Of a stretch of 64,000 nt of DNA, positions 1-49,256 are shown in pieces (the stretch's first letter is position 1; the number at the start of each line of letters is the position of its first letter). The stretch covers positions 4,337,501-4,401,500 of the forward strand of contig NZ_CP089309.1 of the NCBI RefSeq assembly GCF_021228795.1. Reading direction: 5' to 3'. Under the pieces are notes generated by a model that made no database searches, had not been told where the DNA came from, and was given only the letters and a program-made list of their open reading frames with translations. The stretch comes from Thiocapsa bogorovii (lineage in GTDB: Bacteria > Pseudomonadota > Gammaproteobacteria > Chromatiales > Chromatiaceae). A program made the translations under genes and the position numbers.

Positions 1-80
1 GCGCTCAGCGCGGTATGCGATGTTCTTGGATGGGATCGGCACCGGTAGATTTGACGACCCTTTGCGCCGGCCCGGTTTAG
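1..80 (+). repeat. 87-bp TTAA-ended element, copy 1 (cut by window edge)
   Basis: Matches the GCC-type copy at 19051 from its eighth base onward, including the central GATGGGATCGGC, and ends GGCCCGGTTTAG. The missing seven bases would lie outside the window, which gives a full length of 87. It lies 21 bp downstream of the kinase stop codon. Confidence 0.8.
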
Positions 81-101
81 GTTGACAGCCGGAGGCCTCG
101 G

Positions 102-3100
102 TTAGTCGGATGCGGGGTCGATTATCTGCGCAGCACGCCCCTTCGCTTCGGCGTCGCTATGTCCGGGCAGCCAGAGGGCGATGGTCCGGTAGAGCTCGCC
201 GATGTCGATCGGCTTGGCCAAGTGGCCGTTCATCCCCGCTTCCCGGGCGTCGTTCCGATCCGCCTCCATCACTGCAGCCGAGAGTGCAATGATCGGCAGA
301 TCCCGACGCACAGTACGAATCCGCCGGGTGGCCTCGAAGCCGTCCATGATCGGCATCTGCAGATCCATGAGGACGAGATCGAACTCTCGCGTCGTCGCCA
401 GCGCGACCGCCTCGCCACCGTTTTCGGCCAGGGTGACGACGGCGTCGGTCCGCTGGAGCATGCGTTTTGCGACCTCCTGGTTCAGTGCATTGTCTTCCAC
501 CAGCAGAATCCGGGAGCCGGCAAACGAGGGCGTCGAAGCACGAGGCGCTCGCGTGGGTTTGCCGGTTTGCGGCTTTTCGCCATGCGCCTCGAGCAAGGTG
601 TCGAGCAGGGCCGATGCAGTGACCGGTTTGCCCAGGAAACCCTTGAGCCCCGAGCGGTCTTTTGGAAGGTCGTCGCGGTTATAGCCGCTGACGATGATGG
701 CCGGCGCCTCGGTACCGGTCAGAGTGCCCTTTTCCCGCATGCGGTACAGCTGCCTGACGGCCTCCAGCCCGTCGATCTCGCCGGGCATCTTCCAGTCCAT
801 CAAGATGAATTCGAAGGCCATGCCGGCTCGTTCCGCCTCGATGACGGCCTGCACCGCAGCGGCTCCGCTCGCGGCTTCCTCGACTCGGCATCGCCAGCTC
901 TCGAGGATCTCGCGGAGCACGGTTCTGGCGACGGCGTGGTCGTCGACGACCAGGACTCGGGATCCGCTGATCTCTCGAACATCGCCCGCTCCGGTGTCTC
1001 CCCGCGAGACCGGCAAGACCAGTTCGAACGTAAAGACACTGCCCGCTCCGGGCGAGGAGGTGACCCCAAGGTGGCCGCCCATACGTTCGACCAGTTTGCG
1101 GCTGATGACGAGTCCCAAACCGGTGCCGCCGTATTTTCGTGTTGTCGAGCTGTCGGCTTGCGAGAAGGCCTGGAAGAGACGATCGCACTGCTCCGCGTCC
1201 ATGCCGATTCCGGTGTCCGACACCTCGAAGCGCAGGCGAGCCTGATCGGTATCCCCGCCGAGTCGGGTGATCCGAATCTCGACGGTTCCCTGCTCGGTGA
1301 ATTTAAGCGCATTGGCGAGCAGGTTGGTCAAGACTTGGCCGAGGCGCAGCGCGTCGCCGAGCAGCGTCCGAGGGACCTCGGGTGACACTCGGAAAACGAG
1401 CTCGAGGCCCTTTTCGCCGGCGGCGGAGCCGAAGAGTGTGGCCATCTGCTCGAGGAGTTGGTCCATGCGAAACGGACGGGACTCCAACTCCAGCTTGCCC
1501 GCCTCGATCTTGGAGTAATCCAGAATGTCGTTGATGATCCCGAGCAACAGGCGCGAGGAGCCGTGAATCTTTCCCAGATAGTCGCGCTGCTCGTCATTCA
1601 GATCGGTTCCCAACAGGATCTGGCTCAGTCCGATCACGGCGTTCATCGGGGTACGGATCTCGTGGCTCATGTTGGCCAGGAACTCGCTCTTGGATCGGCT
1701 GGCGGCCTCGGCTTGCTCGCGGCTGAGTCGCAGCGATTCTTCCGTTTCGCGTCGCTTCTGAACGTTCACGAGCATCTGCGCGAATACCGTCAGCAGCCGC
1801 TGCTCGGTCTTTGAATAGCGATGGTGTCGGCGCACCGAATCGAAACCCACGAACCCTCGGCAGCGCGGCCCGTCAATCATCGGCACTGCGATCGCGCTCT
1901 TGATCCCTTGCGGTTCGAGCACCTGTCTGACGCTGCTCTCGGGCGGGAGCGAGAGCACATCGGGGACGTAGACAGTGCCTCCCTCCCGATGGGTCGCGAC
2001 CCAATCGGGGATCATGCCCATCGGAACGGCCTGCAGGGTGTCGATCTGAGGCTCGATCCCCGGCGCGCACCATTCGTGGGTATTGGTGGCGATCTGTCGC
2101 TCGAAAACGTAGTCGAAGAGATAGGCCCGATCCGCACCGACGAAATCGCCCAGATGTCCCAGCGAGGTCTCGATGACCGCATCGACCCGGTCCAACGGCA
2201 GGCTGATATAGGTCGCGGAGACCTCCATCAAGAGATCCTGCAGGCGGGTCTCTCTCTGCAGTGCCTTTTCACTGTCCTGAAGATGGGCGAAGGTGTCCAG
2301 GCGCTTGATGGTGCTGCCGATGACCTGCACGAGAAGCTGCAACAAACCAAAGTCGCTTTTTGCCCAGGCGTGCTCCGGGCGAAGGGCCTCGAAGCCGACG
2401 AAGCCGCCGAGCTTCCCGCCGCTGTCGACCATCGGCAGGCAGAGCAGCGACCGAATGCCTCGGACCAGAAACTCCGCCTTTTCGGTGGCGGCCTCCTGCG
2501 GAAGGGCGGACACGTCGGGGATCAGGACAGGCTTTCCGGTTGCCATCCGAGCCTTCCACCAGGGTAGCCCCTCAACGGGCTGGTCTTGCCAACGCTCCAT
2601 CTGAGACACCGTGCCGGGGGCACACCACTCGTGGGTGTTGGTCATCCGAGAGCCGTCTTCGGAGAGACGGAACAGGTAGGTTCTCGCGACGTCGAGAAGC
2701 TCGCCGAGCCGGTGCAGAGCCTGATCGAGGACGGCGTCGAAGTTGTCCGGGCGGGCCCTCGCGAAACGGGCCGAGAGCGCGGCAGCGGTGCTTTCCAGTG
2801 CCATCCGTCGTGCGGTCTCGGCCTGCGCTCGCTTGCGTTCGGTCACGTCGCGTGCAGCGGCGTAGATCAACTCTCCGCTGGGAAAGGAGCGCCACTCGAT
2901 CCACCGATAGCCGCCCTCGCGACATCGGTAGCGGTTCTCGAAATCCAGGATCGCTGCATTCGCGTCGAGGCGTCGGGTCGCCTCGAGCGTCGCCGCCCGA
3001 TCCTGCGGATGGACGAAATCGAGGAAGGGTCGCCCTTCCAATTCTTCGGGCGGGTAACCGAGGGTGCGCTCCCATTCCGGGTTCACGCGCACGAAAATAC

Positions 3101-11342: not shown

Positions 11343-11429
11343 TTAAACCGCGTCCGGAGTGATTAGGCGATGGTTTTGGGTTTGCTGGGCCTCATCTACA
11401 ACTGCGGCCGCAGTGGAGACGCGGTTTAA
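11343..11429. repeat. 87-bp TTAA-ended element, copy 2
   Basis: Arms TTAAACCGCGTC and GACGCGGTTTAA are perfect complements, extendable to 13 bp by an outer A/T pair. Exactly 87 bp. It is paired with the copy at 11449 through a 19 bp AT-rich linker, in a divergent intergenic region. Confidence 0.92.
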
Positions 11430-11448
11430 TAATAATTTTTTCAATGGG

Positions 11449-11535
11449 TTGAGTCGCGTCTACCCCGGCGTATCGGGTGTTTTCGATTCCGGCGTGTCAG
11501 GTTCAACGCGGATCTGCACCTCGGACGCGATCCAA
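11449..11535. repeat. 87-bp element, degenerate copy 3
   Basis: Degenerate arms TTGAGTCGCGTC and GACGCGATCCAA still pair over most of their length, and the spacing is exactly 87 bp. It lies 19 bp from copy 2, giving a 193 bp dimer. It was recognised by position and length as much as by sequence. Confidence 0.7.
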
Positions 11536-15866: not shown

Positions 15867-15982
15867 AATTATTTTTTTCATTGGGTTAACCTCGTTTTCC
15901 GAATGGGTCGTGTTGCCGCGTGACTTCCTGTGCCGTAAACCCGGTCACGCCGCTCATCGGATCGGTCGGGTGGACAAGGCCT

Positions 15983-16056
15983 GTAGGGTACAAGCGCAGC
16001 GCAGTCCACCAACGCCGGCGCGAGGTTCGGTGGACTTCGCTCTCGCTCGTCCACCC
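15983..16056. repeat. GTAGGGT...GTCCACC repeat, copy 1
   Basis: GTAGGGTACAAGCGCAGCGC...CCACC, a short GC-rich spacer, then GGTGGACTTCGCTCTCGCTC...CACCC. The halves form an imperfect inverted repeat. The same family occurs at 45350, 49284 and 61987. Confidence 0.75.
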
Positions 16057-16122
16057 GACGGGCTACCGGCCGCCTGGCCAGCCGGCCCGCGGGGTCGTCT
16101 GCAAACTCATGCTCTCAATCTC

Positions 16123-16210
16123 TTAAACCGCGCCGCGCCGATCGGCAATGGTGGCCTCGTCATAAATGCCGCCCTCCGACATCCGCGTTCGTCCGCCGAA
16201 CGCGGTTTAA
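16123..16210. repeat. 87-bp-type TTAA-ended element, copy 4 (88 bp)
   Basis: Arms TTAAACCGCG and CGCGGTTTAA are perfect. The right arm contains the TAA stop codon of the oligopeptidase gene (16207-16209). No partner copy is seen. Confidence 0.88.
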
Positions 16211-18240
16211 GCCGCGATGCCGGAATGCCGCAACAGCGCGTCCGTATTCGGCTCACGCCCCCGGAACCGCACATAAAGGATCATCGCGTCCTCCGACCCG
16301 CCCTTCTCGAGGATGTTTTCGCGGAAGGACCGGCCGGTGTCAGCGTCGAAGACACCCTTTTCCTCGAACAGCGAGAAGGCATCCGCCGACAGGACCTCGG
16401 CCCATTTGTAGCTGTAATAGCCGGCCGCGTAGCCGCCTGCAAAGATGTGGGAGAAGGCGTGGGCGAAACGGTTGAAGGCCGGTGGACGGATCACGGCCAC
16501 CCGGTCGCGGACCTCCTCGATGATCTCGTAGACGCGTCCGCCGCGTGCGGGGTCGTATTCCAGATGCAGGCGGAAATCAAACAGCGCGAACTCCAGTTGC
16601 CGCACCATCTGCATGGCCGACTGGAAATTCTTCGCCGCGGTCATGCGCTCGTAGAGGTCCGCAGGGATGGACTCGCCCGTCTCCCAGTGGGCGGCAAAGA
16701 GGTCCAGGGATTCGCGTTCCCAGCACCAGTTCTCCATGAACTGGCTGGGCAGCTCGACGGCATCCCAAGGCACGCCGTTGATCCCCGCCACACCCGGATA
16801 GTCGACCTTCGTCATCATGTGATGCAGGCCGTGGCCGAACTCGTGGAAGAGCGTCTCGACCTCGTTGTGGGTCAGCAGCGAGGGTTTGTCGCCGACCGGC
16901 GGGGTGAAGTTGCAGACCAGGTAGGCGACCGGGAGTTGGTCGCAGCGACTGGTGTGCATCCTGTTGGTGCAGACGTCCATCCAGGCCCCGCCGCGCTTGT
17001 TCTGGCGCGCGAAGGGGTCGAGATAGAACTGGCCGCGCAGCGCCCCGGATACACCGTCGCGGATCTCGAAGAAGCGCACGTCCGGGTGATAGGTGTCGAA
17101 GGACTCGGCCTCCTGGATCTTGACCCCGAAGAGACGCTCGACGACGCCGAAGAGGCCTGAGAGTACACGCGAGATCGGGAAGTAGGGCCGCAGCTCTTCC
17201 TGACTGATCCGATAGCGGTGCAGGCGCAGCTTCTCGGCATAGTAGCCGACGTCCCACGGCTCCAGTGTCTCGACCCCGTGCTGCTCTCGGGCGAACGCCT
17301 CGAGCTCGGCAAGCTCTTTGCGCGCCTGAGCGACCGAGCGGTCGGCCAAGTCGTTCAGAAAAGCCAGCACGTCGTCCGGGGAGCGGGCCATCTTGGTCGC
17401 AAGCGAGCGCTCGGCGTAGTTTGCGAAACCGAGCAGCTGGGCCAGCTCGTGACGGAGCGCGAGGATGCGCTCCATGATCTCGCCGTTGTCCCACTGCCCG
17501 GCGTGCGGCCCCTGATCGGAGGCGCGTGTCCCGTACGCCTGGTAGAGCTCGAAGCGCAGCTCGCGATTGTCCGCATAGGTCATGACCGGCATGTAGGAGG
17601 GCAGGTCGAGCGTGAAGAGCCAGCCGGTCTGGCCACGTTGTTCTGCGTTCTGCCGGGCCAACCCGAGGGCGGATTCGGGCAGGCCCGCGAGCTGCGTCTC
17701 GTCCTTGATCAGCGTGCTCCAGGCGTTGGTGGCGTCGAGCACGTTCTCCGAATACTTGGTGGTGAGCTGCGAGAGCTCCTGACTGATCGCTCTGTAGCGG
17801 GCCTTCTTCTCGGCCGGGAGATCGACGCCCGAGAGGTGGAAGTCGCGCAGCGCGTTCTCCAGGAGCTTGCGCTGTGCCGGGTTCAGGTGCTCCTGCGCGG
17901 CGACCGACTGATAGCCGCGGAAGAGATCCTCGTTCTGCCCGACCTCGGTCCCGTAATCGCTGAGCTTCGGCAGGCAGGCGTTGTAGGCGGCGCGCAGCGC
18001 GTCGCTGTTGAGCACGCCGTTGAGATGTCCGACCGGCGACCAGGCGCGGCTCAAGCGGTCGTCGATCTCGTCCAGCGGCTCGACGAAGCTCTCCCAGGTC
18101 GGCACCGCGACCTCGCGTGTCAGGCGCTCGATCTCGGCGCGGCAGTCGGCGAGACAGACGTCGATGGCGGGCTCGACGTGTTCGGGACGGATCCGGGAGA
18201 AGGCCGGGAGGCCGGTGGTCTCGAGCAATGGGTTCGTCAT
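16207..18240 (-). CDS. prlC: Oligopeptidase A (M3 zinc metallopeptidase)
   Basis: Cytoplasmic zinc peptidase that degrades small peptides, including cleaved signal peptides. 677 residues, near the 680 of E. coli OpdA/PrlC. The HEFGHGLHHM motif gives the HExxH zinc ligands, with the downstream Glu in the SQFMENW segment. The start chosen is MTNPLLETTGLP, which aligns with the family N-terminus; the frame is open another 42 codons upstream without family similarity. The stop codon TAA comes from the arm of a repeat element, so the natural C-terminus may have been set by that insertion. Confidence 0.96.
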   Translation of the reverse strand: MTNPLLETTGLPAFSRIRPEHVEPAIDVCLADCRAEIERLTREVAVPTWESFVEPLDEIDDRLSRAWSPVGHLNGVLNSDALRAAYNACLPKLSDYGTEVGQNEDLFRGYQSVAAQEHLNPAQRKLLENALRDFHLSGVDLPAEKKARYRAISQELSQLTTKYSENVLDATNAWSTLIKDETQLAGLPESALGLARQNAEQRGQTGWLFTLDLPSYMPVMTYADNRELRFELYQAYGTRASDQGPHAGQWDNGEIMERILALRHELAQLLGFANYAERSLATKMARSPDDVLAFLNDLADRSVAQARKELAELEAFAREQHGVETLEPWDVGYYAEKLRLHRYRISQEELRPYFPISRVLSGLFGVVERLFGVKIQEAESFDTYHPDVRFFEIRDGVSGALRGQFYLDPFARQNKRGGAWMDVCTNRMHTSRCDQLPVAYLVCNFTPPVGDKPSLLTHNEVETLFHEFGHGLHHMMTKVDYPGVAGINGVPWDAVELPSQFMENWCWERESLDLFAAHWETGESIPADLYERMTAAKNFQSAMQMVRQLEFALFDFRLHLEYDPARGGRVYEIIEEVRDRVAVIRPPAFNRFAHAFSHIFAGGYAAGYYSYKWAEVLSADAFSLFEEKGVFDADTGRSFRENILEKGGSEDAMILYVRFRGREPNTDALLRHSGIAA

Positions 18241-18417
18241 GGGTGTGGCCTGATCGGGTTCGCGGATCGAATGGGTCTCAGGGTGCGGCTCGGCAGTCTG
18301 CAGAAAGAATCTGCCGGGACCACCGGCGGGCCGGAACAGACGAAGCCTTGCCGCCCGCCGAATCATGCGGGCTGCACGCCTGAGTTTCCAGTCGAGCGAT
18401 CGATGTGCTCGGCGTGG

Positions 18418-19050: not shown

Positions 19051-19137
19051 TTAAGCCGCGCCCAGCGCGGTATGTGATGTTTTTGGATGGGGTCGGCCCC
19101 TGCAGACTTGATGACCGCTGGAGCTTGCGCGGCTTAA
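19051..19137 (+). repeat. 87-bp TTAA-ended element, copy 5
   Basis: Arms TTAAGCCGCGC and GCGCGGCTTAA: an A-to-G change in the left arm is matched by T-to-C in the right. GCC-type interior. It forms a 193 bp dimer with copy 6 via the AT-rich linker 19138-19158. Confidence 0.92.
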
Positions 19138-19158
19138 GATATTAAGAAATAAATCATT

Positions 19159-19243
19159 TTAAACCGCGTCCCGAGCAAAATGCGTCATTTTCACTTCGCT
19201 TTTGGCTTTGGACACATCTTCGATCTCGGTGATGCGCGGTTAA
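19159..19243. repeat. 87-bp-type element, copy 6 (85 bp)
   Basis: Left arm TTAAACCGCGTC; right arm GATGCGCGGTTAAA with one T lost. The interior differs from copy 5. It lies upstream of smc. Confidence 0.75.
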
Positions 19244-19399
19244 AGCCGGCAGGATGCGCTCGCCATGACGCCCGTCGTGCTCCGCACCCGCGCGCATCGC
19301 CGCATCGAGATCCTCTAGTCTACCAGCCCGAAAGCTCCGTGCCATGCGAGACGCTCGGCCCGCTTGTGCCCTCGATTCTCCTTCCGGTATGGTTCTTGG

Positions 19400-26240: not shown

Positions 26241-26513
26241 ATGCATGAATTGAGCAAAGAGCAACAAATCCTGATCGCGATGCGCAAGACCCTGTCTGCG
26301 ATCATTCGAGACGTGACCCCGCCGCCCGGGATGCGTCACCCCTTGTCCGATCCGACCATCGAGGACGTGCGTCAATGCTTGGGCCTGATCGCCGCACGCG
26401 AGAAAGAGCTGGCGGACGCTCAGGGTCGCGGCGGGGAGCGCCCCTACTATGTCGACGAGCCGCCGGATGCCCGGGTCGTACCCATTGCCGGCATCAAAAA
26501 ACGCAAGGAGTGA
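26241..26513 (+). CDS. Conserved hypothetical protein downstream of ligA
   Basis: 90 residues, soluble, starting MHELSKEQQILIAMRKTLSA. It has a Pro-rich middle (TPPPGMRHPLSD), a helical segment IEDVRQCLGLIAAREKELADA and a basic end (IKKRKE). No family or function is recognised. It sits 136 bp after ligA and only 4 bp before the carbonic-anhydrase-like gene, so it may be co-transcribed with either. No strong Shine-Dalgarno is visible. Confidence 0.7.
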   Translation: MHELSKEQQILIAMRKTLSAIIRDVTPPPGMRHPLSDPTIEDVRQCLGLIAAREKELADAQGRGGERPYYVDEPPDARVVPIAGIKKRKE

Positions 26514-26517
26514 TCCG

Positions 26518-27330
26518 ATGACCTTTCCGTGCCTGGCCAACCCCGATGCCGCCCGACGGCACCGTGTCGTGCGTTTGACGCTCTGTCTGGTCGCGGCCGG
26601 TCTGTGCCGTGATGCCGCTGCGCGCGATCCGGTGACAACGCGGGTGCCCGAGTGGTCGTACTCGGGGGTGGCTGGCCCGGACCAATGGGGCGATCTCGGC
26701 GGCGCATACGAGCTTTGTTCGCGGGGCGAGCTGCAATCGCCGATCGATATCGTCGAGACCCAGCGCGTCACCTACACGCCCTTGCTCTTTCGCTACCGAT
26801 CGCAGCTCCTCGAAGCGGAAAACACCGGCCACGGAGTGCGTTTGATCTCGCCTCCCGGCAGTGCACTTGTGGTCAGGGGGCAGGCCTATGACCTGGTCGA
26901 ATTCAACTTCCATGTCCCCGGTCTGCACGCTTTCCAGGGGGTTACTGCAGAGGCCGAGATCCACATGGTGCACCGCGACGGGCAGGGCGGCTATGCCGTC
27001 GTTGCCGTGCCGCTGCGGGCCGGCGATCGCGAGAATCGGATTCTCGACCGTATCCTGGAGCATTTTCCGATGCAGCCCGGGGAACGGGTGCGGCAACGTC
27101 AGGTCGGCATCAATCCGCTCTTCCTGCTGCCGGTCGATCGAAGCTACTACCGTTACACGGGTTCGCTCGTCACGCCCCCATGCACCGAGCCGGTGCTCTG
27201 GTTCGTCTTTCGCGAGCCGCTCGAGGTGAGTGCCGACCAGATCCAGCGCATCGCGCGGGCCACCGGCGCGAACGCCCGACCGGTCCAACCCCTCAACGGC
27301 CGTCCGGTCTTCTCGCTGTTCCGCTATTAA
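26518..27330 (+). CDS. Alpha-carbonic-anhydrase-like periplasmic protein, probably acatalytic
   Basis: 270 residues with a signal peptide (about 15-36, ending AAARD). Alpha-CA fold signatures are present: WSYSG..GPDQW, QSPIDI, ENTGHG, SLVTPPCTEPVLW and a C-terminal NGRPVF. The zinc site is altered. Where active enzymes have HFH, this protein has NFH (Asn130, His132); the third ligand is His149 (EIHMVH). The gatekeeper Glu, in S-E-H of bacterial enzymes, is Leu136. Loss of one zinc ligand and of Glu predicts little or no CO2 hydration; a binding role is possible. The TAA stop comes from a repeat arm. Confidence 0.88.
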   Translation: MTFPCLANPDAARRHRVVRLTLCLVAAGLCRDAAARDPVTTRVPEWSYSGVAGPDQWGDLGGAYELCSRGELQSPIDIVETQRVTYTPLLFRYRSQLLEAENTGHGVRLISPPGSALVVRGQAYDLVEFNFHVPGLHAFQGVTAEAEIHMVHRDGQGGYAVVAVPLRAGDRENRILDRILEHFPMQPGERVRQRQVGINPLFLLPVDRSYYRYTGSLVTPPCTEPVLWFVFREPLEVSADQIQRIARATGANARPVQPLNGRPVFSLFRY

Positions 27331-27413
27331 ACCGCGCCCCTTGCGGTCTACGTTGTTTTTGGATGGGATCGGCCTCGGCGAACTTCACGGCCGTTGGAGC
27401 GGGCGCGGTTTAA
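27327..27413 (+). repeat. 87-bp TTAA-ended element, copy 7
   Basis: Arms TTAAACCGCGCC and GGCGCGGTTTAA are perfect; GCC-type interior with GATGGGATCGGCC. It carries the stop codon of the carbonic-anhydrase-like gene. Confidence 0.93.
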
Positions 27414-27432
27414 GGTTTTATTCTTCAACACT

Positions 27433-27519
27433 TTAAACCGCGCCAGATCCAACAATCGTCGAGTCTGCCGGGGCCGATCCCATCCGAATACGTCACATAC
27501 CACGCTGGGCGTGGTTTAG
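27433..27519 (-). repeat. 87-bp TTAA-ended element, copy 8 (inverted)
   Basis: Reverse-complement homologue of copy 7, 19 bp away across an AT-rich linker, so the pair forms a 193 bp inverted dimer. Its right arm GCGTGGTTTAG carries the stop codon of the pentaheme cytochrome (27516-27518). The dimer fills the whole space between two convergent genes. Confidence 0.93.
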
Positions 27520-28829
27520 GGTGCGACGATGGACTGCTCGACCTCGGCGACGAGGACCGGATCCGTCAACTCGGTCGGGAGTTGGCTAAATTTTTCAACC
27601 AACGACGGCCACATGAGGTTGTAATAGAGCTCGCCGCGCACGAGCACGACACCCTCCGAGGGGATCTCGTAGGCGATCTCGCGCGTCTCGTGTGGCTTGA
27701 GTCGGGTGTCCTCGCCGGGCTGCGTGGCGGTCGGCGGCGGGGCGGGCAAGCCTTTGTCGTCCGCGAGGGCGTAGAAGAGATACGCCTTCGGATCGTCCTT
27801 GGCGGGATGGCCCTCGGCGTTCTGCCAGACCACCTCGCCTTGATCGTTGTAGGCGGTGAGCTTGAAGTACATGTTGCGGAAGGGCGCCCCGGTCGGTACG
27901 GCGTGGGGTTGCGAGTTCTGCAAAAAGACCTTTGTCTTGAGCATGTCGCCGTCGAGATCGCTTTGCACGTCGAAGACGACCGAGCGTTTCAGCATGCCGT
28001 GGTCATGTCCGCCGCCCATGGAGTGATCGACGAGCCCGCCCGAGATCGGCATGTGGCAGGATTGGCATGCGGCCTTGCTGCCGCTGGCGATGAACTCGTC
28101 GCCGGTCGCACACAAGGCGACGTTGTTGGGGTTGTTGCGGCGGTCATGGCAGCCCATGCAGGCATCCGAGGTCTTCATCAGAACGGGACTGGCATCCATG
28201 GCGAGCGCCGGGATCTCGATGCCGTCCATCTCCACCGGCTCGCCGAGATGCGGGTTCGGTTTCTGCGAATCCTCCGCATCGTCGACCGCTCCGCCGAAGA
28301 GATCGTCACCGGCCGCGGTAAGTTTCTGAACGCCGCGCGGGAAGGCTGCGGGCCCTTGGAGCTGGTCCGAGACCTCGTACGCTTTCAGGCCGAGACGTAG
28401 CTTCCCGTCCTCGCCCTGAATGCCTTTGTAACTCTTCAGCGTATGGCAGGCGACGCAGTTCACGCCTTCGCTGTAGGCGACGTGCGCATCGAGCTTGGTG
28501 GTCTTGTCGCGCGCCGCGTTCGGGGCATGACATTGCAGACAGACCGGGTAGGTACCGGACCTCTTGTGCACCTGTCCTTCGGCCGTCGGGTCGCCGACCT
28601 CCATTCCGTAGAAGGCACCGTGGATCGGGTCCTTCAGGGCGGTGCTGTTGGCGTGCATGGAGCCTTTCCACTGTCGATAGATCTCCTCGTGGCAGGTCTG
28701 GCAGACCTCTGCCGAGATGAGATGCATCGGCTCGGATGCTTCTTCGCCCGCCGCGGCCGGGCCGGCAATGCCGGCGAGGCCGAGTGCAAGACCGAGTGAG
28801 ATCGAGAGTCCCGCGAACAAGCGTCGCAT
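27516..28829 (-). CDS. Pentaheme c-type cytochrome, periplasmic
   Basis: 437 residues. A signal peptide ends at PAAAG. Five CxxCH heme sites are present: CQTCH, CLQCH, CVACH, CMGCH and CQSCH. The C-terminal third is heme-free and beta-rich (VVFDVQSDLDGDMLKTKVFL, FRNMYFKLTAYN). It resembles cytochrome c554-type multiheme proteins and probably carries electrons in the periplasm. It is divergent from the HAO-like/NapC-like pair, and a shared metabolic role is likely. AAGGAGG precedes the ATG by about 10 bases, one of the strongest ribosome sites in the window. Confidence 0.9.
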   Translation of the reverse strand: MRRLFAGLSISLGLALGLAGIAGPAAAGEEASEPMHLISAEVCQTCHEEIYRQWKGSMHANSTALKDPIHGAFYGMEVGDPTAEGQVHKRSGTYPVCLQCHAPNAARDKTTKLDAHVAYSEGVNCVACHTLKSYKGIQGEDGKLRLGLKAYEVSDQLQGPAAFPRGVQKLTAAGDDLFGGAVDDAEDSQKPNPHLGEPVEMDGIEIPALAMDASPVLMKTSDACMGCHDRRNNPNNVALCATGDEFIASGSKAACQSCHMPISGGLVDHSMGGGHDHGMLKRSVVFDVQSDLDGDMLKTKVFLQNSQPHAVPTGAPFRNMYFKLTAYNDQGEVVWQNAEGHPAKDDPKAYLFYALADDKGLPAPPPTATQPGEDTRLKPHETREIAYEIPSEGVVLVRGELYYNLMWPSLVEKFSQLPTELTDPVLVAEVEQSIVAP

Positions 28830-38454: not shown

Positions 38455-38541
38455 TTAAACCGCGTCCGGGGATTTCATGTTGTGGCGTGGCGTCCTTCGG
38501 CCTCGTCGCTCCTCGGTACGATCGGCGCGACGCGGTTTAAG
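38455..38541. repeat. 87-bp TTAA-ended element, copy 9
   Basis: Arms TTAAACCGCGTC and GACGCGGTTTAA are perfect. It abuts the trkA start codon and is paired with copy 10 across 18 bp. Confidence 0.93.
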
Positions 38542-38559
38542 ATATGGAAACAAAGAACT

Positions 38560-38645
38560 TGAAGTGCGTCAGTGCCAAGGTCTGTAGAGACGCCCAACCT
38601 GTGTTCCAGATTCCAACTGGACATGCCTCGCCGGACGCACTTCAA
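38560..38645. repeat. 87-bp-type element, copy 10 (86 bp)
   Basis: Arms TTGAAGTGCGTC and GACGCACTTCAA are perfectly complementary although several positions differ from the consensus arms, so both arms changed together. It makes a 191 bp dimer with copy 9. Confidence 0.88.
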
Positions 38646-40029: not shown

Positions 40030-42266
40030 CGTTTTTCATCCTGTTCTCGGCCCTCGGGCACGGACCTGGTCCCCTGCCGGATCGGCAGGCGGATCCGAAT
40101 CATCGCGCCTTGACCGGTATTCTCGACCTTGATGATACCGCGGTGTTCCTCGACGATCTTCTTCACGATGGCCAAACCCAGACCGGTTCCTTTGGCCTTC
40201 GTGGTCACATAGGGCTCGAACAGACGCTCGAAGAGATGCTCCTCGAATCCCGGCCCGTTGTCGGCGACCTCGAGCTCGACGAGCGATAAGCCATTCTCGC
40301 GTGCGACGCGCGTCGACACCGCGATGCGCGCGTCGGGACGCCCGTCCATCGCCTCCTGCGCGTTCTTGATCAGATTATGAACCACTTGACGCAAGCGTAA
40401 CGGATCGCCGCGCACCTGCACCCCCGGCGCACCGAGATCCACCTCGAGGGCGCTCGTGCCGGCGCTGCGATACAGGTCCAGCACCTCTTGGGCGAGTCGG
40501 TCGAGCTCCAAGGGCTCGGCGTGGATGTGCGGCGTGCGGGCGTAGTCGGAGAAATCGTTGACCATCGCCTTCATGGCCTCGACCTGTTGAACGATGGTCC
40601 GGGTCGAGCGATCGATGATCTTCGCGTCCGCCTCGTCGGCCTTGGCGAGCAGCTTATGCCGCAGACGCTCCGCGGAGAGCTGAATCGGCGTCAATGGGTT
40701 CTTGATCTCGTGGGCCAGGCGTCGGGCCACCTCGCCCCAGGCCGCATTGCGCTGCGCGGTGATCAACGAGCTGATGTCGTCGAAGACCACGACGTGACCC
40801 CGCTGCTCGCTGTCCGGAAGCGGTAACGGGCTGCCCCGGCACATCAGGGTCTGACGGTTCTCGCCGCGATCGAGCTCGATCTCGGCACGCCAGTCCTCGC
40901 CCGCGAGGATATGGCTGCGCACCGTCTCGGTCCAGGGTGTGAGCCAGGGCAGCTCGCGCTCCACGCGCGCGAGCTCCGGCGGCTCGTCTTCGGCAAAGGC
41001 AAGGGAGAGGATCTGACGCGCCGCCGGGTTGGCGGTCCTTAAACGTTGGTCGGCATCGAAGGCGATGACGCCGGAAGACAGACGCCCCAGGACCGTTTCG
41101 AGATAGTTGCGCTGGGTCTCGACGGCTTGCTGGCTGCGGTTTGCGGCATCCCGTGCCCGGGCGATGCGCCGCGTCATTGCGTTGAACGAGGCGACCAGAA
41201 AGGCGAGCTCGTCGTCGTGTTTGGGCAGCGGGAGCTGTTGCTCGTAGTCGCCCTCGGCGATCGCGCGGGTGCCGCGCGCGATATCCGCAACCGGTGCGAC
41301 GAGGCGTCGTGCGATATGAAAGGCGGCGATCACCGCCGCCATGACGCCGAACAGGAGCACCAACGACAGGGTCAAAGAGAAGCTCAGCTTCAACGACTGG
41401 CGCAGATACGCCAGCTCGGTGTAGCGATTGTAGGCGTTTTCCAACCGCTCCGAGAGCTCGGTGATGCGTGCCGAGGTCGGGAAGATCGCCTGCATCTTCA
41501 TGTCTCGCCCACGCGGATCCTGCACCAACACCCGCACGATCAACTCGCCGCCGAGATCACTTTCCAGGCCGACATAGTTGTTGCCGGCGCGCACGCTCTG
41601 CTGGATCTCGCGCTCCGCCTGATTCGGAACCAACTGGGTCGGATCCTCGTTGGCGTTGCCGAGCACTTGGCCGCCGGCGGTGTAGACGGTCAGCTCGATG
41701 GCGCCGGCCTGACGCCGCAGATTGTCCAGACTCAGTGCGATCGCGGTCGAGGAGCGATCCTCGATCCCGGCGATGAGCTGCTCGGTGTACCGGGCCAGGA
41801 CCCGCTGATTGAGATCGAGCGAGGCCTGATTCAAGACCAGCGCGTCCTGCATGGCTTGGCCGATCTCCACGTCGAACCAGCTGTCGATCCCGCGCAGCAG
41901 GAATCCGAGCGAGAAGTAGTAGACCACGCCGACCGGCAGCAGGGAGACAAGCACGAAGAGCACCAGGATCCGCCCGGTCAGGCGCGATCCGGCCGCTTGC
42001 TGCCGATAACGGCGGACCAGCTTGACGATGTTGACGATGACGAGAATGGCGAGCGCGCCCAGACCGGCCAACACCACCGAGAGCAGGGGCACGAAGGCAC
42101 GGCTCAGGGTCTCGGAGTTCTCGACCGCATCGCGCATCAGAACCAGGACGACGAAGAGCGCCAGGATCAATGCCGCGACCGGCAAGGCGCCGAGTCCGCG
42201 CAGGCGTGCTAAACCGCGTACAGAGCGAGATGCTGAATTTTCGAGCGAGTTCGACGTTTGATTCAT
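40026..42266 (-). CDS. ntrY: NtrY-type membrane histidine kinase
   Basis: 746 residues. Helices at about 28-45, 60-85 and 100-125, a periplasmic region (about 125-300), another helix near 305-330, HAMP (330-385), PAS (about 390-490), HisKA with RRLAHEIKNPLTPIQLSAERL (His519) and HATPase_c (N-box NLIKNAQEAMDG, G-boxes DNGPGFE, GTGLGLAIVK). It phosphorylates NtrX. The first 20 or so codons (MNQTSNSLENSASRSVRGLA) lie within repeat copy 11, so the N-terminus was supplied by the element. This tail precedes the first helix and is probably dispensable. Confidence 0.95.
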   Translation of the reverse strand: MNQTSNSLENSASRSVRGLARLRGLGALPVAALILALFVVLVLMRDAVENSETLSRAFVPLLSVVLAGLGALAILVIVNIVKLVRRYRQQAAGSRLTGRILVLFVLVSLLPVGVVYYFSLGFLLRGIDSWFDVEIGQAMQDALVLNQASLDLNQRVLARYTEQLIAGIEDRSSTAIALSLDNLRRQAGAIELTVYTAGGQVLGNANEDPTQLVPNQAEREIQQSVRAGNNYVGLESDLGGELIVRVLVQDPRGRDMKMQAIFPTSARITELSERLENAYNRYTELAYLRQSLKLSFSLTLSLVLLFGVMAAVIAAFHIARRLVAPVADIARGTRAIAEGDYEQQLPLPKHDDELAFLVASFNAMTRRIARARDAANRSQQAVETQRNYLETVLGRLSSGVIAFDADQRLRTANPAARQILSLAFAEDEPPELARVERELPWLTPWTETVRSHILAGEDWRAEIELDRGENRQTLMCRGSPLPLPDSEQRGHVVVFDDISSLITAQRNAAWGEVARRLAHEIKNPLTPIQLSAERLRHKLLAKADEADAKIIDRSTRTIVQQVEAMKAMVNDFSDYARTPHIHAEPLELDRLAQEVLDLYRSAGTSALEVDLGAPGVQVRGDPLRLRQVVHNLIKNAQEAMDGRPDARIAVSTRVARENGLSLVELEVADNGPGFEEHLFERLFEPYVTTKAKGTGLGLAIVKKIVEEHRGIIKVENTGQGAMIRIRLPIRQGTRSVPEGREQDEKR

Positions 42267-42295
42267 GCACAGCCCTTGGCGGGGACGCGGTTTAA
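42209..42295. repeat. 87-bp TTAA-ended element, copy 11, inside ntrY 5' end
   Basis: Arms CTAAACCGCGT and ACGCGGTTTAA; exactly 87 bp. It overlaps the ntrY start codon (42264-42266) and the first 20 codons. It is paired with copy 12 across the AT-rich 42296-42316. Confidence 0.85.
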
Positions 42296-42316
42296 AATAA
42301 TATATTTTTTAATAGT

Positions 42317-42403
42317 TTAAACCGCGCCGGCTCCAGCGCTTGTCAAATCGGCCGGGGCCGATCCCATCCAAAAACATCGCATACCGCGCCGGGCGCGGTT
42401 TAA
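42317..42403 (-). repeat. 87-bp TTAA-ended element, copy 12
   Basis: Reverse-complement GCC-type copy with GGCCGATCCCATCC, exactly 87 bp. The arm GCGCGGTTTAA supplies the stop codon of the DUF4390 gene (42400-42402). Confidence 0.93.
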
Positions 42404-42990
42404 GGCGTTAAAGGCCACTTGCTCCACCCGCTGGAGAGTTTCCAGGACGGTTTCAGGTAGGCCATCGGACGCAGCGGAAGCGGCAGCTCTTCGATGTCGA
42501 GCGAGGTCCGGATGTGGACCTCGTAGTCCGTGTCGGCGTCGAGACTCGATGCGCCGATCAAGGATAGATCGGTGATCTCGCCGAGCGCGCGAATGGCGGC
42601 ATCGCGGCTGACGAAGCTGCGGCCCTCGTTGCCGGGAAGCCGGTAGACCTCGTAGCGCTCCGAGAGCGGCTTGTAGCGAATGGCGTAGCGCAGCTGCATA
42701 TCCACGCGGCTGTCCTCCCAAAGCCAGGCCCCGACACGACGGACCTGAATCTGCACCAGGATGGTCAGCGGCACGCCGTTCTCGAGCGCCTCGAGCGCCT
42801 CGGGGCTGAACCGGTAGTCCAGCATGGCATTCATGAAGTAGGTGTCGTCGACGAGTCGCGTCTCGACCTGCTCGACCCGCAGCCCGTCCTTGGCTGCGCC
42901 CGCTGCGACGCTGACCAGCAAGAGCACGGGTGCGAGCATCAGTGCCGCCAGCAGAAACCGCCGTGGAGGGTGTGCGGGCCGCCGAGTCAT
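42400..42990 (-). CDS. DUF4390 secreted protein
   Basis: 196 residues, with an N-terminal signal or anchor (about 10-32, ending AAGAAK). The mature region follows the DUF4390 pattern: VRRVGAWLWEDSRVDMQLRYAIRYKPLSERY and LPLRPMAYLKPSWKLSSGWSKW near the end. Function unknown, but the gene is regularly found between rsmB and ntrY. Its ATG overlaps the rsmB stop as ATGA. The stop is provided by repeat copy 12. Confidence 0.92.
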   Translation of the reverse strand: MTRRPAHPPRRFLLAALMLAPVLLLVSVAAGAAKDGLRVEQVETRLVDDTYFMNAMLDYRFSPEALEALENGVPLTILVQIQVRRVGAWLWEDSRVDMQLRYAIRYKPLSERYEVYRLPGNEGRSFVSRDAAIRALGEITDLSLIGASSLDADTDYEVHIRTSLDIEELPLPLRPMAYLKPSWKLSSGWSKWPLTP

Positions 42991-44342
42991 GACGCGGGAC
43001 GTTCGATCAGCGCGAAATAAAAGCCGTCGTTCGCCCCTTCCCGAGGAAGCAGTTGGATGCCGTGAGAGAGCGCGCGGCCCAGGGTCGTCGCGATCGGACA
43101 CTCTCGCGCATCCGGATGACGTTCCAGAAAGGCGCCGATGCGGTGCTGGTTCTCGTCCGCGATCAAGGAGCAGGTTGCATACAGCAGCCGCCCGCGCGGT
43201 GCGAGCAATGGCCAGGCAGCGTCGAGGATCCGATCCTGCAAGGCGCACAGTGCCGGGATGTCGGCGTCGCGTCGCAGCCATTTGATATCGGGATGGCGAC
43301 GGATCACGCCGGTGGCCGAGCAGGGCACGTCGAGCAGGATGCGATCGAAGGGCTTGGCGGTCCAGCTGCCTCTTGGCTCGGCCGCGTCCCCGAGTGCGAC
43401 CTCGGCGCTCAGGCCCAGTCGCGCGAGTGTGTCGCGGATCGATTTGAGCCGCGCCGGCGCATTGTCGATGGCCAGCAGATCGAGCCGGTTCTCGGCGCGT
43501 TCCAGGATGCCGGCGGTCTTTCCGCCGGGCGCGGCGCAGGCGTCTAGGACACGCTGGCCGGGGCGCGCATCCAGTAGATCGGCCGCCAGCTGAGCGCCCC
43601 CGTCCTGCACCGAGACCAGCCCGGCCTCGAAGCCGGGCAGTTCATGGGTCGGGCGCGGCTGATCGAGCGTCAGGCCCATGTCGCAGTCGGGTATGGGCCG
43701 TGCGGTGATGCCGGCGGCGGCCAGCGTGCCGAGATAGGCGCGCCGATCGATCCGGGTGCGGTTCACGCGCAGGCTCATGGGCGCGCGGGCGTTGCTGGTC
43801 CGCACGATCTGCTCCCAATCCTCCGGCCAGTTCTCGCGCAGGCGGTCGAGCAGCCATTCGGGAAAGAGCCAGCGCACGGCAGGTTCTCGATCGACCTCGG
43901 CCATCAGTGTTTCGCGCTCGCGCAGAAACCGACGCAGCAGTGCGTTCACCAAGGCTGCCTTGTCGGGCTTGCCGATGAGGCGACTGGCCTCGACCGTTGC
44001 GGCGACCGCCGCGTGGTCGGGCGTGTCCATCGCGATGAGCTGATACAGGCCGATCAGGATCAGTGATTCGAGATCCTTGTCCGCGGGTTTGACGGGGTGA
44101 TTGAGCAAGCGCGCGACCAGTGCCTCCAGGCGCGGCAGGGTGCGCAGCGAGCCGTAGACCATCTCTTGTGTGAGTGCGCGTTCGGCGGGCGCCTGTGACG
44201 CCAAGCGCCTGTGCTCGAGCACGCGCGTGAGCGACTGGCCGCGGCCGCGCACGCCGAAGAGTGCCAGTGCGGCAGCCGCGCGGGATTCGGCGCCGACGGG
44301 ATGTCTTGCCGGGCCGGGGGCCTGCGGCCGGCGCTCAGCCAA
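42987..44342 (-). CDS. rsmB: 16S rRNA m5C967 methyltransferase RsmB
   Basis: 451 residues. An N-terminal NusB-like domain (about 20-160) precedes the methyltransferase domain: SAM motif [35 protein letters not shown] with the first catalytic Cys, and LLYATCSLI with the second (the TC of motif VI). It methylates C967 of 16S rRNA using S-adenosylmethionine. The start is TTG at 44342, overlapping the fmt end by 8 bp. Confidence 0.97.
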
Positions 44343-45300: not shown

Positions 45301-45349
45301 CGCGCCGGATCGCCGTTCGGACCCGCGGTTCTAGTCCAAACACCGCCCG

Positions 45350-45425: not shown

Positions 45426-45442
45426 GGCCGATCCGATCGGCG

Positions 45443-45976
45443 TCACAATACACCCCGACGTTGCTCGGGCTCGCTCGCGGAATGGCGCTGCTCCTTTTCG
45501 AGCTTGCGGCGGATGCGCTGGCGTTTGAGCATCGAGATGTGATCGACAAAGAGCTTGCCGTCGAGATGATCGATCTCGTGCTGGATGCACACCGCGAGCA
45601 GGCCGTCGGCATCGAGCGTAAAGGGTTGGCCTTCGCGATCCAGCGCCTGGACGCGCACGCGCTCCGCGCGCTTCACCGTCTCGAAGAAGCCGGGGACGGA
45701 GAGACAGCCCTCGTCCATCTCCTCCTCGCCTTCGCGCGAGAGGATCTCGGGGTTGATGAGGCACAGTGGCGCGTCGTGGTTCTCCGAGACATCGATCACC
45801 ACGACCCGGCGCGGCACGTTGACCTGGATCGCGGCCAAGCCGATGCCGGGTGCGGCATACATCGTCTCGAGCATGTCGTCGACCAGCCGCACGATGTCGG
45901 CATCGACGCGCGCGACCGGAATTGCCTTGCGGCGGAGTCTGGGATCCGGGAAGGTCAGGATATCGAGCTTTGCCAT
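45443..45976 (-). CDS. def: Peptide deformylase
   Basis: 177 residues. Removes the formyl group from nascent proteins using a metal centre. The three motifs are GIGLAAIQV (44-52), EGCLSVPG (Cys91) and HEIDHLDG (132-140). The ATG gives [15 protein letters not shown], the standard start. It heads the def-fmt-rsmB-DUF4390-ntrYX-trkA run on the minus strand and is divergent from the LysM gene. Confidence 0.97.
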
Positions 45977-46201
45977 CGGGATGTCGTCTGAAAGATCGGT
46001 TCTCGGGGGTCTCGTCTCTCGGGCGATCTCGTCTCTTGCGTGATCGCATCTCTCGGGGATCCTGTCCCGCGAGCGACCCGCGGGCACGATGTCGGGTCGG
46101 GAGCCGAGTAGAAGGGGTCGGGTCGCATGCGCTAATATCGCGCCAATACTACACCCCGAAATGGGGCCGGGTGAATCCGTTTCGAGCATCCGGGAGGTCC
46201 G

Positions 46202-47422
46202 ATGCGTGTTTTGAGCCGTCGCTTCAGCTTCGCAGAGGTTGTTCTTTGCGCCTTGATCGGTCTGGTCGCCATGGCCTGGGCTTCGTCGGTGCGTGCGCTC
46301 GAGCTTGCCGAGGACGCACCCGAGGTCTACGAGGTGCGTCCCGGCGACACGCTCTGGTCGATCGCAGGGCGTTATCTGCGCGATCCCTGGCTCTGGCCCG
46401 AGATCTGGCAGGCCAACGACGATCCCGGCGATCCCGATCTCATCTACCCCGGAGAACGGCTGCGTCTCGTGCATGTCGACGGTCGGCCGCGGGTCGTGCG
46501 CGACACCGCCGCCCGGGCGAGCGGCGAGATGCGTGTCGTGCGTCTGAGTCCACGGGTGCGGGTCAGCGCGCTCGAGGCGCCGGTGCCCATGATTCCCGTC
46601 GCCTCGATCGAGCCCTTCCTGACTCAGCCCTGGGTCGCCGAGTCTGACGCGATCAAGCGCGCGCCCTATGTCGTGGGTTTCGCAGACGATCGCACCGTCG
46701 CCGCACCGCCGGACGACGTCTTCGTGCGGCGCATCGATACGACTGCGGTCAGCGCGTTCCAAATCCTGCGCCCCGGGGATGCGCTGCGCGACCCGGATAC
46801 CAACCGCATCCTCGGCTACGAGGCCACCTTCGTCGCCAACGCCGCACTCGAGCGCGTCGGGGATCCCGCGATCCTGCGGGTCACGCGATCCGAGCGCGAG
46901 GTCTCGATCGGCGATCGCGTCATCCCTGCCTCGCTCGAAGCGCCTCTCGAGAACTTCTTCCCGCGTCCTGCCCCGGCCGGGTTACGCGGTCGGATCCTCT
47001 CGGTGATGAACGGCGTCTCTCAGATCGGTCAGTACGACATCGTGACCCTCAACCGAGGGTCGCTCGACCGGCTTCAGCCCGGACACGTCCTGGAAGTCTT
47101 CCGCGGCGGGGAGGAGGTACGCGACAAGGTCCGCGACGGCGGCGTCAACTGGAATTGGAGGAGCGACGGACCCACGACCGGCGCCTTCTGGCTCGGCAAC
47201 GACTATTCGGTGAAGGGCTGGAGCGAGAGTCCGACGGGCTCGAGTGCGCCGATCCCATTGCACGCAGACATCGGTCGCGATCGCGCGACCTATATTCGCC
47301 CGATGCAGCGCGCCGGATTGATGATGGTCTTCCGAAGCTTCGATCGCGTGAGCTTCGCGCTCGTGCTCAATGCCGACAGAGCCATGGCTGTCGGCGACCT
47401 GGTCTCCCCGCCGGCACGATGA
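46202..47422 (+). CDS. LysM-domain envelope protein
   Basis: 406 residues with a signal peptide (about 10-33, ending VRALE). One LysM motif follows (about 41-92: [20 protein letters not shown]...[10 protein letters not shown]), which binds peptidoglycan. The rest is beta-rich and includes [16 protein letters not shown] and a terminal [14 protein letters not shown]. It belongs to the LysM proteins found upstream of dprA in gammaproteobacteria; the precise role is unknown. Confidence 0.93.
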
Positions 47423-47452
47423 CGGGCTTGGACGCCTCTTGAGCCTCCCCAC

Positions 47453-48595
47453 TTGAGCCTCACCACGGACTCCATCAGGGACTGGATCGTCCTTATCTCC
47501 GCTCCGGGCATCGGATCACGCACCGCGGCCCGATTGCTCGAGCGCTACGGTTCGCCGAGGGCGGTCGCGGAGGCCTCGCGACACGATCTCGCCGCAGCCG
47601 GGATCTCGTCCGAGGCGATCGCCGCGCTCAAACAGCCCGACGGCGCGGCGCTCGAGCGTATCCTCGCCTGGGCCGACCAGCCCGATGCCTGCGTGCTGAC
47701 GCGTGCCGATGCCCGCTACCCCCCGTTGCTCGCCGAAATCCCGGATGCCCCGCTGCTGCTCTACGTCCGCGGCGACCCCGAGCTGCTCGCCGAACCGCAG
47801 CTCGCGGTGGTCGGCAGCCGCAATCCAACCCCGTCGGGTCTCGAGATCACGCGCGATTTCGCCCGGCGGCTCGCCGCCGACGGCCTGCTGATCACCAGCG
47901 GCTTGGCGCTCGGTGTCGACGGCGCTGCGCACGCGGGCGCGCTCGAGGCGGGGCGGACCATCGCCGTTCTCGGCACGGGGCCGGACCTGGTCTACCCCGC
48001 GACCCATCGGGAGCTGGCGCGGCGTGTCGCCGAGCGCGGTGCGCTGGTCACCGAGTTTCCGCCCGGTCAGGGACCTTCGGCACGGAACTTTCCGCGGCGC
48101 AACCGGATCATCAGCGGGCTTTCCGTCGGCGTCCTGGTCACCGAGGCGGCGCTCAAAAGCGGCTCCCTGATCACCGCTCGCTTCGCGCTCGAGCAAGGCC
48201 GCGACGTGTTCGCGGTGCCGGGCTCCATCCGCAATCCGCTGTCGCGCGGCAGCCACGCCCTGATTCGAGACGGTGCCAAGCTGGTCGAAGATCCCGCCGA
48301 GATCCTCCTCGAGCTGGCCCCGATGCTGCGCAATCTGCTCTCGGCCTGCTCCGGCGAGACGTCCGCGGCGAACGACGAGGCCTGCGCCGCGGCAGGGCGA
48401 GGCGGGAGCGCGGCACTCGGCGCCGACTACCGCGCCTTGCTCGATGCGATGGGGTTCGATCCGGTGTCGCCCGACGAGCTCATCGCCAGCAGCGGCCGCT
48501 CGGCTCGGGAGGTCTCGTCCATGTTGTTGGTCCTGGAGCTGGAGGGTCATGTATCATCGGCCCCTGGAGGCCGCTTTTGCCGGCTCGGTTCTTGA
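47453..48595 (+). CDS. dprA: DNA-processing protein DprA
   Basis: 380 residues. Loads RecA on incoming single-stranded DNA during natural transformation. An N-terminal SAM-like helical domain (about 1-75) comes before the Rossmann domain with VVGSRNPTPSG and SGLALGVDGAAHAGAL, and FPRRNRIISGLS. A winged-helix domain ends the protein. Start is a TTG (TTGAGCCTC), 30 bp after the LysM gene. Presence is typical even in bacteria not known to be competent. Confidence 0.95.
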   Translation: MSLTTDSIRDWIVLISAPGIGSRTAARLLERYGSPRAVAEASRHDLAAAGISSEAIAALKQPDGAALERILAWADQPDACVLTRADARYPPLLAEIPDAPLLLYVRGDPELLAEPQLAVVGSRNPTPSGLEITRDFARRLAADGLLITSGLALGVDGAAHAGALEAGRTIAVLGTGPDLVYPATHRELARRVAERGALVTEFPPGQGPSARNFPRRNRIISGLSVGVLVTEAALKSGSLITARFALEQGRDVFAVPGSIRNPLSRGSHALIRDGAKLVEDPAEILLELAPMLRNLLSACSGETSAANDEACAAAGRGGSAALGADYRALLDAMGFDPVSPDELIASSGRSAREVSSMLLVLELEGHVSSAPGGRFCRLGS

Positions 48596-48658
48596 GCGGA
48601 AACGTCCGGGTTGTCCACAAGGGAACGCCTGAATGGACTACCGGTGCAGTTCGCTCCC

Positions 48659-48676
48659 GTCAGCCTTCGGGCTGAC
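48659..48676. repeat. REP-like hairpin
   Basis: GTCAGCCTTCGGGCTGAC, an 8 bp stem with a short loop, followed by GCCGCCCACG. It lies between dprA and smg. Confidence 0.55.
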
Positions 48677-48696
48677 GCCGCCCACGAGGTTGGCTG

Positions 48697-49173
48697 ATGT
48701 ACGAAAACATGGTCGATGTGCTGATCTATCTCTACGAGAACTACATGGACGGCGAGGGTCAGCCCCCGGCCGACCAAGGTGCTCTGGAGGATGAGCTCGC
48801 TCAGGCCGGCTTCACCCCGACGGAGATCGAAAAGGCACTGCTGTGGCTCGACGAGCTGGCGGCCGGCGTCGATGTCCCGCAGTATCACGACCACACCCTC
48901 GGCTCCATCCGCATCTACAACGCGGCAGAGTCGAGCAAGCTGGACGTGGAGGCGCGCGGTCTGCTGCTGTTTCTGGAGCAGAACGGGATTCTGGACCCCG
49001 TCAGCCGCGAGCTGGTCATCGACCGCTTGGTCGCGATCGATCAAGCAACGGTGGGCCTCGACGAGGTCAAATGGGTCGTCTTATTGGTCTTGATGAATCG
49101 TCCCGGTCGCGAGGATGCCTTCTCCCAGATGGAGGATCTCGTCTACAACGACGAGCCGGTTTACCTCCATTGA
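48697..49173 (+). CDS. smg: Smg family protein (DUF494)
   Basis: 158 residues: MYENMVDVLIYLYENYMDGE is the Smg start, then EKALLWLDELA and DEVKWVVLLVLMNRPG. Function unknown; it is regularly found between dprA and topA. GAGG precedes the ATG. The TGA stop (49171-49173) lies in the left arm of repeat copy 13. Confidence 0.95.
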   Translation: MYENMVDVLIYLYENYMDGEGQPPADQGALEDELAQAGFTPTEIEKALLWLDELAAGVDVPQYHDHTLGSIRIYNAAESSKLDVEARGLLLFLEQNGILDPVSRELVIDRLVAIDQATVGLDEVKWVVLLVLMNRPGREDAFSQMEDLVYNDEPVYLH

Positions 49174-49256
49174 ACCGCGTCCGGGATGACCTGGTCCGTC
49201 GTCGAATCGGCGCGGCGTCTCACGCTCCAGCGGGCGTTGGCGTCGACGCGGTTCAA
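49170..49256. repeat. 87-bp TTAA-ended element, copy 13
   Basis: Arms TTGAACCGCGTC and GACGCGGTTCAA: an A-to-G change matched by T-to-C. Exactly 87 bp. It contains the smg stop. The linker-like 49257-49274 leads into another repeat, not a partner copy. Confidence 0.93.

Follow-up and report, generated by a model that had tools for sequence, protein, structure and literature searches.

The 64,000-nucleotide stretch of the Thiocapsa bogorovii chromosome analysed here (positions 4337501–4401500 of a single 5,649,927-base chromosome; "the window" below) contains thirteen copies of a short element of about 87 bp with paired arms. These copies probably belong to a non-autonomous family of the Chromatiaceae that resembles the miniature inverted-repeat transposable elements (MITEs), inserts at TA in the style of IS630 and is built of REPIN-like modules. 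The mobile unit is usually a heterodimer, overlooked in the initial annotation, in which a T module (86–87 bp) and a C module (87–88 bp) are separated by an AT-rich spacer of about 21 bp, giving about 191 bp, or about 195 bp with the duplicated TA. The unit is MITE-like in being too short to encode a transposase, in its multiple copies, in its terminal inverted repeats (outer ends AACCGCG...CGCGGTT) and in the duplication of TA at five loci, and it is IS630-like in that duplication and in a CTAG-like target, seen at five of the eight loci with a 4-bp empty site.

The evidence for insertion comes from a comparison in which 524 kb of the window's genome was set against T. marina, T. roseopersicina and Thiocapsa KS1 (about 500 kb from each) and against shorter amounts of UBA6158 (99 kb) and S07.Bin152 (47 kb). 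Among 213 orthologue comparisons, 72 have the same type label, 85 have different labels (a class that includes threshold effects and dimer-versus-single states and is not a tally of swaps), 30 have no detectable copy and 26 have an apparent empty site. At eight loci exactly 4 bp lie between the aligned flanks, and five of these read YTAR in at least one species. They are window 42209 (CTAA in T. marina, T. roseopersicina and UBA6158, CTAG in KS1), Tros 24176 (TTAG in two species), KS1 92661 (CTAG in one species), Tmar 86733 (CTAG in two species; the window's genome reads GTAAG there) and Tros 98180 (TTAG in one species, with 3 bp of the left flank unaligned). The filled sites read N1-TAA...TTA-N4; TA is present twice, and N1 and N4 agree with the target in one or more species, so the element has inserted at the TA inside YTAR, with duplication of TA, at five orthologous loci. 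Since CTAG sites are filled as CTAA...TTAG, the duplication cannot span four bases, nor can the element have entered after YTAA with no duplication at all. A four-base duplication also disagrees with position 4, where 294 of 299 copies have A on the left side and T on the right, and insertion without duplication is contradicted by two CTAG loci. Whole dimers moreover recur at many places in five genomes with about 79–91% identity, and the matches end at or near the dimer ends. The initial annotation had proposed that conserved length and complementary arms suggest selection and are not typical of a simple decayed MITE; length and pairing both hold up (below), but they do not count against a MITE, as the empty sites, the TA duplication and the whole-dimer copies in five genomes indicate an element that is mobile and MITE-like, and as REPINs, which are known to be mobile, unite the same traits (PMC3116915). 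We suggest that a T-spacer-C unit of about 191 bp inserts at the TA of YTAR and duplicates it through a DDE transposase acting in trans, probably with IS630/Tc1-mariner chemistry to judge from the target. A 1991 title by Tenzen and Ohtsubo reportedly concerns the preference of IS630 for CTAG.

Several of these features would also be expected if a REPIN-type hairpin were mobilised in single-stranded form by a tyrosine transposase of the REP-associated kind (Y1/RAYT). REPINs, as described in the relevant parts of PMC3116915, combine a fixed length and conserved ends with an interior that varies, show compensatory changes and leave singles as remnants of doublets; dimers of REP sequences with spacers are mentioned in part of PMC3733652, and the genome of the window has 14 Y1_Tnp (RAYT-like) matches, one of them in the window at 60691–61005 (-). 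The change from CTAG to CTAA...TTAG at two loci nevertheless means that TA was duplicated, where a model without duplication predicts CTAA or TTAG. Furthermore, only one of the eight Y1_Tnp loci examined among the 14 has a family copy (L126), which does not flank the gene as one of a pair, the 3.3-kb locus of the window's own match (L131) has none, and the arms carry no GTAG tag. We regard transfer by such an enzyme as rather improbable.

Some observations weigh against TA insertion of a MITE-like unit. Three of the 4-bp empty loci are not YTAR and do not fit unless they mutated later: positions 4405593 (CTGC, CAAT) and 2094706 (TCAC) of the window's genome (G000), and UBA 14111 (CAAA). Single modules with looser flanks and 4 bp between them also read otherwise (CTCG and CCCG at UBA 9451, TTCG and TCGG at S07 9591), and the other empty-site comparisons had gaps of different length, from -1 to 29. 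All five fitting empty sites are of dimers, so mobility has been demonstrated for dimers only. Among 94 dimers of the T(+)/C(-) type, 46 have C outside the TA of the T end but only 14 have the matching G at the C end, an asymmetry that symmetric TA insertion does not predict. No element with the family's ends together with a transposase gene was found at the loci searched. Finally, simple insertion does not explain the replacement of one subtype by another at the same locus. With flanks aligned to the arms, window 27327 has a C1 module where S07.Bin152 has T2, and S07.Bin152 has T1 where T. roseopersicina has T2 (L155:7091); less securely, the diverged copy at window 16123 corresponds to a C1 module in S07.Bin152, the right flank being aligned up to the element end and the left only to within 133 bp. 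Such cases would be natural if the arms were sites of recombination or gene conversion between which interiors are exchanged in place like cassettes. They are few, however, independent insertions at the same stop codon could produce them, and the TA duplication at empty sites would have no explanation, so that we give exchange of this kind very little credence as the basis of the family.

The search for a parent insertion sequence covered several kinds of loci. Four DDE_3 loci and 30 of the 60 DDE_Tnp_1 loci in the window's genome, and 22 DDE_3 loci in three other genomes, do not have the family ends as their own; a family copy lies nearby, not as ends, at four of these 56 DDE loci (L223, L276, L281 and L297). 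A search with PF13340 gave no autonomous partner, and in 2.42 Mb with 494 copies we could recognise no T and C module with a long cargo between them; ten T-to-C distances of 282–3903 bp, whose contents were not searched, seem to be neighbouring dimers or singles. Among 110 orphan arms there are eight pairs 320–3628 bp apart. Pfam comparison of ten main open reading frames (ORFs) from six of these eight spans found no transposase, and three of the ORFs match no family; of the two other spans, one repeats another and one has no ORF of 90 codons. In passing, we note that the window's genome contains a DDE_Tnp_1 insertion sequence of about 1.74 kb with 468- and 545-aa open frames, present in about 30 copies of near-equal score; the copies that were compared are >99% identical.

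Non-redundant clustering gave 150 dimers and 200 singles. The distance from one copy to the next has a sharp cluster at about 21 bp; the spacer is 17–22 bp in 142 of the 150 dimers and exactly 21 bp in 76. In 120 of the 150 the layout is T(+)-spacer-C(-), with opposed modules and a spacer consensus near AATTTTATATTTTTTAATATC, and dimers of diverged modules retain it. Mean spacer AT content is 0.86 in T/C dimers and 0.77 in the 30 other dimers. The interiors define subtypes C1, C2, T1 and T2, and the left ends of T and C modules have a longer consensus in common. Many of the single 87-bp copies appear to be half-dimers from which the other half has been lost or has decayed, since their AT-rich flank is mainly on the inner side (0.69 inner versus 0.40 outer in 49 C1 copies); individual cases are visible, as at one locus that has a dimer in L119 and only the T1 half in L120, and in the T. 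marina orthologue of window 19051/19159, which has the C1 half and no T2 module. Other sequence stands in place of the second half of a dimer at L137:8921, and the second half is likewise replaced in the T. roseopersicina and KS1 orthologues of window 27327 (254 and 645 bp between flanks, respectively), the former with a truncated T1-like piece. At L111:4410 and L136:10570 there are 46-bp near-perfect palindromes made of the arms and the right-hand C2 hairpin, possibly a third, minimal form.

The near-constant length claimed in the initial annotation stands after scans over wider ranges, the test by which that annotation proposed it might be refuted. Across the chromosome 51 exact-arm pairs lie at exactly 87 bp, with none in a reversed control. 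When 78–97 bp was allowed, 478 of 500 copies from the analysed DNA and related genomes were 85–88 bp. Exact arms 20–400 bp apart in 133 sequences, most of which had been selected with a 77–97 bp window, gave 155 copies at 78–97 bp (147 of them 86–88 bp) and, outside that range, only 25 at 187–195 bp, which are dimers. Within subtypes C1, C2, T1 and T2 a good part of this constancy is probably simple common descent.

The genome of the window has 161 exact-pattern copies (12-base arms, total 84–91 bp), and the covariance model matched all 150 of the genome candidates that were given to it for scoring. An arm finder gave 25 matches per 264 kb against 2–3 under an order-3 Markov null (two runs); with a stricter setting the null gave 0–1 per 264 kb. 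The arm pair was found in at least 120 stretches, and among the 80 matches listed all are from Chromatiaceae (Thiocapsa, Thiobaca, Thiocystis, Lamprocystis and metagenome-assembled genomes). In an order-level search the pattern was present in 25 of 210 genomes, all of one family, with no matches for reversed-pattern controls; the richest genomes have 478, 417, 276, 238, 224 and 222 exact-pattern copies. The exact pattern is absent from three of 11 genomes of the window's genus, and so patchy a spread suits a mobile family but not an element essential to the host.

The arms of each module are 12 bp long and pair with each other. In 54 of 62 picked copies, all selected for at least 11 of 12 arm pairs (a selection that favours pairing), 98.0% of arm cells pair and covariation is 0.158 versus 0.088 in shuffled sets, with none of 500 shuffles as high; shifting the partner arm abolishes the covariation. 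A comparison of orthologues is less biased (references with at least 9 of 12 pairs, partners with at least 5), and its 910 cells contain 14 two-sided arm changes where about 3 are expected if the sides change independently. Twelve of the 14 are from one Watson-Crick pair to another; as they come from only five loci, they represent few independent events. Against kept pairing, one-sided changes affect 76 cells, and in 52 of these the change leads to or from a wobble-type pair. Examples of two-sided change are window 49170, with TTGAACC/GGTTCAA in four species and TTAAACC/GGTTTAA in KS1, L148:2399, with ACCGCG/CGCGGT versus ACTGCG/CGCAGT, and window 38559, in which three arm pairs differ on both sides from the family consensus. 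The claim that the arms stay complementary is thus sustained by shuffles and orthologues alike, pairing being kept through compensatory changes at a small number of independent loci. Although the inner arms do not form the transposon ends of a dimer, their conservation is close to that of the outer arms (mismatch to the arm consensus 2.8% for T and 1.1% for C in outer arms, 4.0% for T and 2.3% for C in inner arms), so they must be constrained as well. Pairing might be kept because mobilisation involves the hairpin or cruciform itself, because old copies at gene 3' ends are retained as RNA hairpins, or because arm-to-arm gene conversion matches the arms.

If the second of these were the origin of the family, it would be a host-selected RNA element, a 3'-end hairpin or terminator, whose mobility is incidental. 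Old copies do persist at the ends of orthologous genes, with arms that have changed in a compensatory way, and the arms of six window copies fold as an outer stem with z of -1.6 to -3.5. The inner structure, on the other hand, has no covariation support in the T1 set, a terminator scan of the dimer at window 42209 returned nothing, the 19 clusters in 264 kb show no excess between convergent genes (9 co-directional, 3 convergent, 3 divergent and 4 called in-gene), and three same-genus genomes do without the exact pattern. We therefore think it most unlikely that an RNA function came first. A multi-hairpin inner fold, although attractive in the consensus, was set aside, as the T1 set's two-sided pairs (3 of 23) are all in the outer arms. 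A tRNA-like or known RNA family was likewise rejected, the window having no tRNA in a tRNA search and no Rfam match at the gathering score.

With A as its first base and T as its last, the element restores TAA when it enters a TAA or TAG stop codon (TA|G becomes TA|A), and insertions at gene ends should for this reason be harmless and may collect there. Insertions are enriched at stop codons: in 181 of 324 clusters a TAA at one end is the stop of a long ORF (100 codons or more, with a base pattern like that of coding sequence), and this is true of both ends in 18. By comparison, 72 of the 445 YTAR sites of one 264-kb stretch are such stops, a background that includes sites inside elements and inside genes, where insertions would be lost. 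The 191 singles have the stop at the outer end in 87 cases and at the inner end in 17. Dimers show no clear orientation bias towards genes: of 106, 32 supply the stop from the T end and 40 from the C end.

In the window itself, family arms (TTAAACCGCG/CGCGGTTTAA, at most one mismatch) have 21 matches where 1.88 are expected, a number reached in none of 100 shuffles, and an unfiltered scan with the covariance model, which includes one window copy (38455), finds 13 distinct places with E at or below 3.3e-4, the next place having E 0.25. The initial annotation's family of thirteen short elements is thereby borne out, as is its count of nine copies of exactly 87 bp; it gave one copy as 85 bp and fitted the copy at the window's edge to 87, each one base off, since 19159, 38455 and the edge copy are 86 bp (16123 is 88 bp). 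Ten of the thirteen form five pairs with spacers of 18–21 bp, and the second halves of the two old dimers had escaped the simple arm search. The only typical T(+)/C(-) dimer consists of a T1-type module (42209–42295, +), the AT-rich 21-bp spacer AATAATATATTTTTTAATAGT (42296–42316) and a C1-type module (42317–42403, -), whose right end is the TAA stop of ORF 42400–43281 (-). At 19051–19137 (+) a C1-type module with compensated arms TTAAGCCGCG/CGCGGCTTAA is followed by an AT-rich spacer of 21 bp (19138–19158) and a T2-type module (19159–19244, +) oriented like its C1 partner, unlike the usual opposed layout. The C1/C1 dimer provides the stops of both of two convergent ORFs: the left TAA of its first module (27327–27413, +) ends ORF 26449–27330 (+) and, beyond a 19-bp spacer (27414–27432), the right end of its second (27433–27519, -) ends ORF 27516–28829 (-).

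Of the two old dimers, one has a diverged first half at 11343–11429 (+; 87 bp, 12 of 12 arm pairs, orthologues in four other species), an AT-rich spacer of 19 bp (11430–11448) and a decayed second half at 11449–11535 (-; 87 bp, 10 of 12 arm pairs, E 3.3e-4). The other has a diverged first half at 38455–38540 (+; orthologues in four species), an 18-bp spacer (38541–38558) and a second half at 38559–38645 (-; 87 bp) whose arms TTGAAGTGCGTC/GACGCACTTCAA pair at 12 of 12 positions. The remaining three copies are single: a C1-type module clipped by the window edge (1–80, +; in full, window -5 to 80, genome 4337495–4337580), and old diverged modules at 16123–16210 (-), whose right-end TTA is the stop (TAA) of ORF 16207–18366 (-), and at 49170–49256 (+; 87 bp), where the TGA at 49171–49173 ends ORF 48697–49173 (+). 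Adjoining copy 16123, window 15952–16061 is a different repeat, 90–92% identical elsewhere in KS1 and T. marina.

The modules behave like REPINs, and their insertion is like that of ERIC, RUP and IS630. The REPINs of Pseudomonas fluorescens, as far as the cited part of PMC3116915 describes them, share the traits listed above, including conserved ends that are inverted, and the GI doublets described there have 71 bp between the starts of two 16-mers; by our own sum this makes 87 bp in total, a likeness to the module length that is perhaps a coincidence. They differ in that here two modules form a heterodimer, TA is duplicated and no RAYT is linked at the eight of 14 Y1 loci examined. REP tags are given as GTAG or CGTC at the end of the palindrome (PMC3733652, in part); the present arms have no GTAG, those of T type hold CGTC internally (CCGCGTC) and those of C type lack it. 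ERIC/IRU, Correia/NEMIS and RUP are, in the portion of PMC2229807 concerned, also short and intergenic with TA at their ends and target duplication, and RUP is tied there to IS630-Spn1; the present family is set apart from them, by description, in its two-module heterodimer, fixed AT-rich spacer, strong use of stop codons and the lack of a parent insertion sequence at the loci searched. IS630 and ISY100 (Tc1/mariner type) likewise duplicate a TA target (PMC2170065, in part), although the multi-copy IS630-type elements with visible ends in genome G159 have other ends (TATACCT...). MITEPsy1 of Pseudomonas syringae is about 100 bp and targets CTAG or YTAA, but according to the section of PMC3189936 that deals with it duplicates 4 nt, unlike the duplication of TA alone in CTAA...TTAG. 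A search for literature on repeats, palindromes or MITEs of Chromatiaceae and Thiocapsa, with subscription journals mostly outside its scope, found no title naming such a family.

It is conceivable, although we hold it doubtful, that the transposase binds each 87-bp hairpin, fixed in length and pairing, as a unit and that the AT-rich spacer helps both modules to extrude as cruciforms, in which case a TA-inserting (DDE-type) enzyme would choose its element by structure and not by end sequence alone. The family joins features that we found described only apart, namely hairpin modules that resemble REPINs and are constant in length, their arrangement as heterodimers across a conserved spacer, and IS630-like insertion at TA. 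It also illustrates clearly how a mobile element can, by its own ends, restore the stop codon into which it inserts. Its copies in sister genomes, together with the empty sites, provide a natural test set for asking why bacterial mobile palindromes keep their arms complementary.

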